From contig NZ_JAANYY010000003.1 of NCBI RefSeq assembly GCF_012274265.1, positions 310,001-374,000 on the forward strand: 64,000 nucleotides of DNA, given 5' to 3'. The DNA comes from Sphingopyxis microcysteis (lineage in GTDB: Bacteria > Pseudomonadota > Alphaproteobacteria > Sphingomonadales > Sphingomonadaceae). The notes under the pieces are model-generated. The model worked only from the letters and a program-made list of their open reading frames with translations, was not told where the DNA came from and made no database searches. Below are positions 3,528-5,342 of the stretch, piece by piece (positions within the stretch are counted from its first letter, which is position 1; each line of letters opens with the position of its first letter). A program made the translations under genes and the position numbers.

Positions 3528-3701
3528 ATGGGCGAGATCGTGAAATCGGTATTGATGGGGCTCGGCTGCCTCAGCATCATGAGCTTTGTCGGTTGCAGCA
3601 TGATGGGCGCCGGGGTGATGGTTGCGGCAGACCGCGCCGCCGACGCGGCGCGCGACGAGCAACGCTCTGAAACCGGACAGAAATCCCCTTGGGATAAGTA
3701 A
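3528..3701 (+). CDS. Small putative membrane or lipoprotein, 57 aa
   Basis: A short reading frame starting ATG 3528 encodes MGEIVKSVLMGLGCLSIMSF, then VGCSMMGAGVMVAADRAADA and a polar tail ending SPWDK. There is one hydrophobic segment with a possible lipobox-like VGC. An AGCGGAG stretch lies upstream at about 8 nt. It fills the gap between arfB and the SRAP-like gene. No homologue is recognised; it could be spurious. Confidence 0.45.
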   Translation: MGEIVKSVLMGLGCLSIMSFVGCSMMGAGVMVAADRAADAARDEQRSETGQKSPWDK

Positions 3702-3751
3702 TCGACAAGCGACCGATTGACAGCCACCTTGTCCAGCGCGATCGCCAGGCG

Positions 3752-4342
3752 GTGACCAGCCTCTACCGCCTCGACGCCCCCGCGGCTGCGATTGCCGCGG
3801 CCTTTGCTGCCGAGGCGGGCGACGATCCATGGACCGGCGATTATGTCGCGCCCGCGCGGCCCGCGCCGGTCATCGTCAGCGACGGTCGCGGCGGCGCGCG
3901 CCGCTTTCTGCGCCCGAAATTGTGGGGCGTCCCGCCTCCGCCGCGCGGCGACCGGCCTGTGACGCACGTCCGCAACCTCGCCAGTCCGTTCTGGATCGGG
4001 ACATTGCGCCATGCCGAACTGCGCTGCCTGATCCCTGCGACCGCCTTTGCCGAATGGTCGGGGCCAGCGGGTGCACGCCGCCAGCATTGGTTTTCAATCC
4101 CGTCGCAGCCCATTTTCGCCTTTGCCGGGGTCCACCGCGATGGCGAAGATTGGCCCTGTTTTGCGATGCTTACGACCGACCCCAATCGGCTGATCGATCG
4201 GTATCAGCCGCACGCGATGCCGGTGATCCTGCACCCCGACCAGCATGCGACCTGGCTGAGCGGCGAATGGCGCGATGCGGTCGCGCTCGCGGCGCCATTT
4301 CCGGCGCAGCTGATGACGGTGACCGATAGCCCGCCAATGTAG
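3752..4342 (+). CDS. SRAP (YedK/HMCES, DUF159) family protein lacking Cys2
   Basis: A 196-residue protein resembling SOS response-associated peptidases, which cap abasic sites in single-stranded DNA through a thiazolidine bond to Cys2. Family landmarks are present: N-terminal SLYRLDAP, VRNLASPFW (Asn), PATAFAEW (active-site Glu) and YQPHAMPVIL (His). The family begins with Met-Cys, whereas here the only plausible start, GTG 3752, gives Met-Thr-Ser-Leu-Tyr. Upstream in frame there is no MC start before a TAA at 3695. It either works without the cross-linking cysteine or has another role. No LexA-type site is evident. Confidence 0.8.
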   Translation: MTSLYRLDAPAAAIAAAFAAEAGDDPWTGDYVAPARPAPVIVSDGRGGARRFLRPKLWGVPPPPRGDRPVTHVRNLASPFWIGTLRHAELRCLIPATAFAEWSGPAGARRQHWFSIPSQPIFAFAGVHRDGEDWPCFAMLTTDPNRLIDRYQPHAMPVILHPDQHATWLSGEWRDAVALAAPFPAQLMTVTDSPPM

Positions 4343-4916: not shown

Positions 4917-5342
4917 TCAGCCGTCTGCCGTCTCTGACTTCTGCAAAATATGCTTCCACTCGCCGGCGGTCACACGTCCGACCGACAGCCGTGACTGGCG
5001 GATCAGGTCCATATCGGCAAGCTTGGGATCGGCCTTGATCGCCGCCAACGTCACCGGATGGGTGAGCGCGCGTACCGGTTCGACGCGCACCACCACCCAC
5101 GGCGAGCCTTCTTCGGCGGTCGGATCGGGGAACGCCGTTTCGGTGATGCGCATGATCCCGACGCATTCCTTGCCGATATTGCTGTGGTAAAACAGCGCTT
5201 CGTCGCCAACCTGCATCGCTTTCAGGTTCAGCTTGGCGGTGTGATTGCGCACCCCATCCCAGATGCCGGTGCCTTCGCGCACCAGCTGCTCCCACGGATA
5301 GGCGTCGGGTTCGGATTTCATCAGCCAATATTGCTTGCTCAT
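4917..5342 (-). CDS. EVE domain-containing protein
   Basis: A 141-residue single EVE domain (PUA-like fold) of the bacterial/THYN1 type. It opens with the signature YWLMKSEPDAYPWEQL, continues with WDGVRNHTAKLNLKAMQVGD and ALFYHSN, and ends with LIRQSRLSVGRVTAGEW. EVE domains read modified bases in DNA or RNA through an aromatic cage; the ligand here is unknown. The gene is convergent with the PilZ gene and divergent from the oxygenase gene at 5496. Length is typical for a stand-alone EVE protein. Confidence 0.9.
   Translation of the reverse strand: MSKQYWLMKSEPDAYPWEQLVREGTGIWDGVRNHTAKLNLKAMQVGDEALFYHSNIGKECVGIMRITETAFPDPTAEEGSPWVVVRVEPVRALTHPVTLAAIKADPKLADMDLIRQSRLSVGRVTAGEWKHILQKSETADG

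Follow-up and report, generated by a model that had tools for sequence, protein, structure and literature searches.

The window analyzed here, a 64,000-nucleotide stretch of the Sphingopyxis microcysteis genome (contig NZ_JAANYY010000003.1, positions 310,001 to 374,000), carries a gene of the SRAP family whose product, judged by alignment, is without three of the four catalytic SRAP residues, a loss that its Sphingomonadaceae relatives share. We think it probable that this protein is a maintained, catalytically degenerate SRAP (a 'pseudo-SRAP') that is non-catalytic and fills a different role. Cys2 was described as 'absolutely conserved' in SRAP by Aravind et al. in 2013 (PMC3765255), and no description of a natural Cys2-less SRAP group was found in the literature searched, which covered few subscription journals. 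The annotation that the Cys2-less proteins receive, SOS response-associated peptidase, overstates function for a large maintained group that lacks the catalytic set.

Start codon, fold and active-site columns

The open reading frame had been assigned to the SRAP family from its letters alone, and this assignment was upheld by a match to the PF02586 profile of 60.4 bits, above the curated cut-off of 27.1, and by the predicted fold. The AlphaFold model had a pLDDT of 89.2 and a pTM of 0.89. Foldseek matched it to YedK, HMCES and PDB 2aeg at a probability of 1.00, and all 21 matches under an E value of 0.001 were SRAP structures. The translated N-terminus reads MTSLYRLDAPA..., as the sequence-only reading had it: a Met-Thr-Ser-Leu-Tyr-Arg-Leu start with Thr2 in place of Cys2. 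Its statement that no upstream in-frame MC start exists was also correct, since the in-frame TAA is followed by no ATG, GTG or TTG before the GTG start (Table 1). The search for an alternative start that would supply Cys2 thus found none in frame, and the missing Cys2 was correctly read. A sequencing error that hides Cys2, which the same reading had allowed for, was contradicted by the relatives: an orthologue 98% identical to the window protein (L033) also has Thr2, and Cys occupies this column in 0 of 40 Sphingopyxis-clade orthologues, which indicates that Thr2 is not a sequencing error.

The remaining active-site positions had been reported as intact, and this held for the Glu only. Alignment with L069, a Cys2-bearing relative at most 62% identical to the window protein, set the motifs THVRN, FAEWSG and YQPHAMP of the window protein against TNVRN, FMEWGG and VHPKAMP. 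A profile-profile alignment in which eleven canonical SRAPs of the MCGR type were used (probability 99.6, E 1.6e-23) paired THVRN with INARS, FAEWSG with YEW, and RYQPHAMP with HIH-HRMP, and a HMMER alignment with PDB 2aeg gave the same column assignment. By these alignments the column of Glu105 holds Glu101, and the columns of Cys2, Asn75 and His160 hold Thr2, His72 and Gln152, respectively. Asn75 of the window protein has only its number in common with Asn75 of YedK and lies in a different column; His154 is probably the residue that was mistaken for the catalytic His.

Table 1 Features of the SRAP locus (positions in the window)
Feature	Position	Strand	Basis or remark
In-frame TAA	3695..3697	+	sequence; ATG/GTG/TTG absent from there to 3752
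SRAP-fold protein (PF02586), degenerate catalytic site, GTG start, 196 aa	3752..4342	+	profile, AlphaFold model, Foldseek
Thr2, column of cross-linking Cys2	3755..3757	+	translation, L069 alignment, profile-profile alignment
His72, column of YedK catalytic Asn75	3965..3967	+	THVRN vs INARS (profile-profile); L069 TNVRN
Arg74, column of YedK Arg77, invariant (93/93)	3971..3973	+	profile-profile alignment, column counts
Glu101, column of catalytic Glu105, kept in the window protein	4052..4054	+	alignments
Gln152, column of catalytic His160	4205..4207	+	L069 comparison, family and profile-profile alignments
His154, two residues beyond the catalytic His column	4211..4213	+	L069 and profile-profile alignments
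EVE-domain protein (PF01878, 155.8 bits)	4917-5342	-	conserved Sphingopyxis SRAP neighbourhood

The window protein shares its fold with the canonical SRAPs E. coli YedK and human HMCES (Foldseek probability 1.00, TMq 0.68-0.79), along with the Arg in the Arg77 column, the Trp-Gly-x-Pro loop and Glu105. It differs from them in the Thr, His and Gln that occupy the Cys2, Asn75 and His160 columns, with which no Cys2 thiazolidine cross-link would be possible. The closest solved relative is the Agrobacterium protein Atu5096 / AGR_pAT_140 (PDB 2aeg), the best match both by sequence profile (1.3e-20) and by fold (TMq 0.81). It has two subfamily motifs in common with the window protein, x-V-R-x-L and the K-A-M-P type, but, unlike it, keeps the full set of Asn (VTNVRKL), Glu (FAEPD) and His (IHEKAMP) in the alignment. 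The laboratory mutants YedK C2A and C2S resemble the window protein in lacking the Cys2 thiol; however, these are single engineered substitutions that leave Asn, Glu and His in place, whereas the window protein is without the Asn and the His.

Residue loss across the orthologous group

Scanning genome contigs yielded 47 relatives, mostly from Sphingopyxis, among which only L069, L070 and L078 began with MCNLYRL. Further genera were added by a family search and aligned, and L067, whose N-terminus was lost at a contig end, was left out of the recount. The counts refer to the distinct Cys2-less sequences whose start could be read, 93 in all. Of these, 0 had the catalytic Asn, 4 the His and 33 the Glu, and the Arg of the Arg77 column was present in all 93. 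The seven nearest Cys2-bearing sequences, from the same clade, had the Asn (7/7), the Glu (7/7), the Arg77-column Arg (7/7) and, with one exception, the His (6/7). One sequence, L088, has Cys2, Asn75 and Glu105 together with an Asn in the His160 column and is, on these residues, a possible intermediate. Within the 40 Sphingopyxis-clade sequences the Asn75, His160 and Glu105 columns ranked in the 93rd, 95th and 99th percentiles of column variability, and the same columns were nearly invariant in 24 Cys2-bearing sequences. Glu was found at the Glu105 column in 9 of the 40 orthologues, the others having Leu, Tyr or another residue; L036, which is 90% identical to the window protein, has Ile. Conservation within the Cys2-less group reached at least 97% at about 35 positions, and an SPFW motif, the Trp-Gly-x-Pro loop and the Arg in the Arg77 column were invariant. 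By these column counts the Cys2, Asn75 and His160 residues are lost group-wide, and Glu105 is lost in much of the orthologous group.

A tree was computed with the trait columns removed; its bootstrap was not fully converged. The tree required about four changes each for Cys2 and Asn75, fourteen for Glu105 and seven for His160, and placement of all Cys2-less rows in one clade was rejected (AU p = 0.0037). L070, which has the MCNL start and the full set, was sister to the Cys2-less L073, L074, L077 and L120 with support of 100/99. Parallel loss of Cys2 is the simplest reading because the canonical outgroup carries Cys2, within a tree that cannot strictly separate loss from regain. A 2.3-Mb genome of the same genus (G015) carries a Cys2-bearing equivalent of L069, L084, in which Asn, Glu and His are all kept. 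In the tree L084 falls outside the Sphingopyxis clade, and it is not accompanied by the RluA-ArfB-PilZ neighbors, which indicates that it is not the same locus as the window gene.

Maintenance, gene neighborhood and other SRAP copies

Values of dN/dS were 0.06-0.36 for pairs that include the window gene, with a median of 0.25 over 777 pairs, and 65 of the 71 genomes in the genus, G015 included, had a match at E <= 1e-60. The Sphingopyxis gene order was almost always RluA-ArfB-SRAP-PilZ-EVE, with the exception of L060, where PilZ had no match. These comparisons show that the gene is maintained under purifying selection at a fixed chromosomal place in Sphingopyxis. A short ORF with a lipoprotein-like start lies between the ArfB and SRAP genes (3529-3702, + strand).

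The neighbors are an RluA-type synthase, ArfB, PilZ and EVE, and no DNA-repair neighbors, SOS-type genes (umuDC, imuAB-dnaE2 or dinB) included, were found. The 300 bases upstream of the window gene contained no LexA-type box (GTTC-N7-GTTC or its complement), and within its clade such a box was present only at L117 and L119. Relatives outside Sphingopyxis had a recurring opposite-strand neighbor that looks thiC-type, its sequence having been judged by eye, and no repair gene was recognized near them. Phages and plasmids gave only matches below 60% identity.

The genome that contains the window also encodes a second SRAP, L001, in which Cys2, Asn, Glu and His are all present. In another Sphingopyxis genome, G007, the Cys2-less form is the sole PF02586 match, which shows that not every genome has a canonical SRAP; in G017 the reverse holds, with a canonical PF02586 match and no Cys2-less form. 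Copy number of PF02586 is high in Sphingopyxis, reaching nine matches in one genome (G014). In the Sphingopyxis relatives L025, L030, L031 and L032, a second SRAP-like gene that lacks Cys2, MSRLYTLAATASDVAD..., lies in tandem with a SRAP of canonical type, MCNLYTERKSAAEVAA..., and this second gene has Asn in both the Glu and the His columns. At L190 and L192, a canonical-looking SRAP (MCNDYRLE...) forms a divergent pair with a shorter SRAP-like protein that has no N-terminal Cys (MSTAPTPFDPDAP... at L190 and MGIAPTPFDPDAP... at L192).

Proposed role and alternative explanations

YedK that lacks the Cys2 thiol forms no stable cross-link (PMC9436759), and with this thiol absent the thiazolidine cross-link would, from the published YedK work, not be formed. 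We propose that the protein would act by non-covalent binding, most likely of single-stranded or damaged DNA by way of those parts of the SRAP groove that are conserved, or else of a protein partner, and that another SRAP of the genome, a canonical one, would carry out covalent capping. The reason for favoring a non-covalent role, probably in DNA binding, is that the catalytic columns drift while Arg74, the Trp loop, SPFW and the fold itself are kept, although the conserved residues behind the DNA-binding proposal may be structural. The lack of DNA-repair neighbors and of a LexA-type box upstream of the window gene, and the G007 genome with no canonical SRAP, weigh against the proposal. The sequence-only reading had offered three options: a different mode of capping, a lyase without covalent trapping, or another role. 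The last fits best, a lyase is possible for this protein and not group-wide, and another covalent form of capping found no support. More tentatively, Sphingomonadaceae SRAPs may have repeatedly turned non-catalytic, kept a DNA-facing scaffold and gained a new dedicated role, for example in the reading of ssDNA or DNA ends or in the regulation of repair. If such repeated conversion is true, SRAP annotation does not equate to abasic-site capping. The Cys2-less group supplies natural controls with which to ask what parts of the SRAP fold are important besides cross-linking.

It is unlikely that the protein is instead a natural AP lyase, in which the alpha-amine of Thr2, with Met removed, would form a Schiff base with the abasic aldehyde, assisted by Glu101, and the strand would be cut and not capped. 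Such chemistry is known from YedK, where Schiff bases are formed by both C2A and C2S, and C2A acts on AP-DNA as a lyase that is only 2.5-fold slower as C2A/H160Q and 25-fold slower as C2A/E105Q (PMC9436759). The window protein keeps the Glu and might, for this reason, have slow lyase activity. However, this residue, the most important for lyase activity, is missing in 60 of the 93 relatives, including the closely similar L036, and most relatives should by analogy lack the activity; AP lyase activity is not conserved across the group, given that the Glu column is among the most variable in Sphingopyxis-clade orthologues. Outright decay, in which the gene would have no present function, is quite improbable. 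The catalytic residues do drift, and L126, L174, L180, L181 and L183 are without an ATG, GTG or TTG start in register, yet the frame is open in the orthologues examined, dN/dS is well below 1, and both the spread of the gene through the genus and the strongly conserved positions of the Cys2-less group speak against it. That the protein is a fully active SRAP whose Cys2 escaped notice, owing to a misassigned start or to an error in sequencing, is extremely improbable: the start is a GTG and the N-terminus was predicted from sequence, but there is no other in-frame start, every Sphingopyxis-clade orthologue examined has Thr or another non-Cys residue, and Asn75 and His160 are gone as well.

The lyase explanation also draws on the register of the N-terminus. 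Methionine aminopeptidase removes Met before Thr, Pro and Ser and leaves it before Gln, Asn, His, Ile and Arg. With this rule, 91 of the 93 relatives are predicted to have their mature N-terminus exactly at the Cys2 column, 70 of which have Met followed by Thr, Pro or Ser and 21 of which are predicted to retain the initiator Met before Gln, Asn, His, Ile or Arg. Such a register may come from a use of the N-terminal amine or from a packing constraint only, and the pattern is statistically weak because the Met-type forms arose from few events. As proof of an amine-based mechanism the register was rejected; L092 and L112 do not fit. A third residue that would permit Met removal was present in about 43% of the Thr/Pro/Ser-type rows and in none of the true Met-type rows, counts that reflect few independent events, and the lone T in the third-residue tally of the Met type is probably that of L112.
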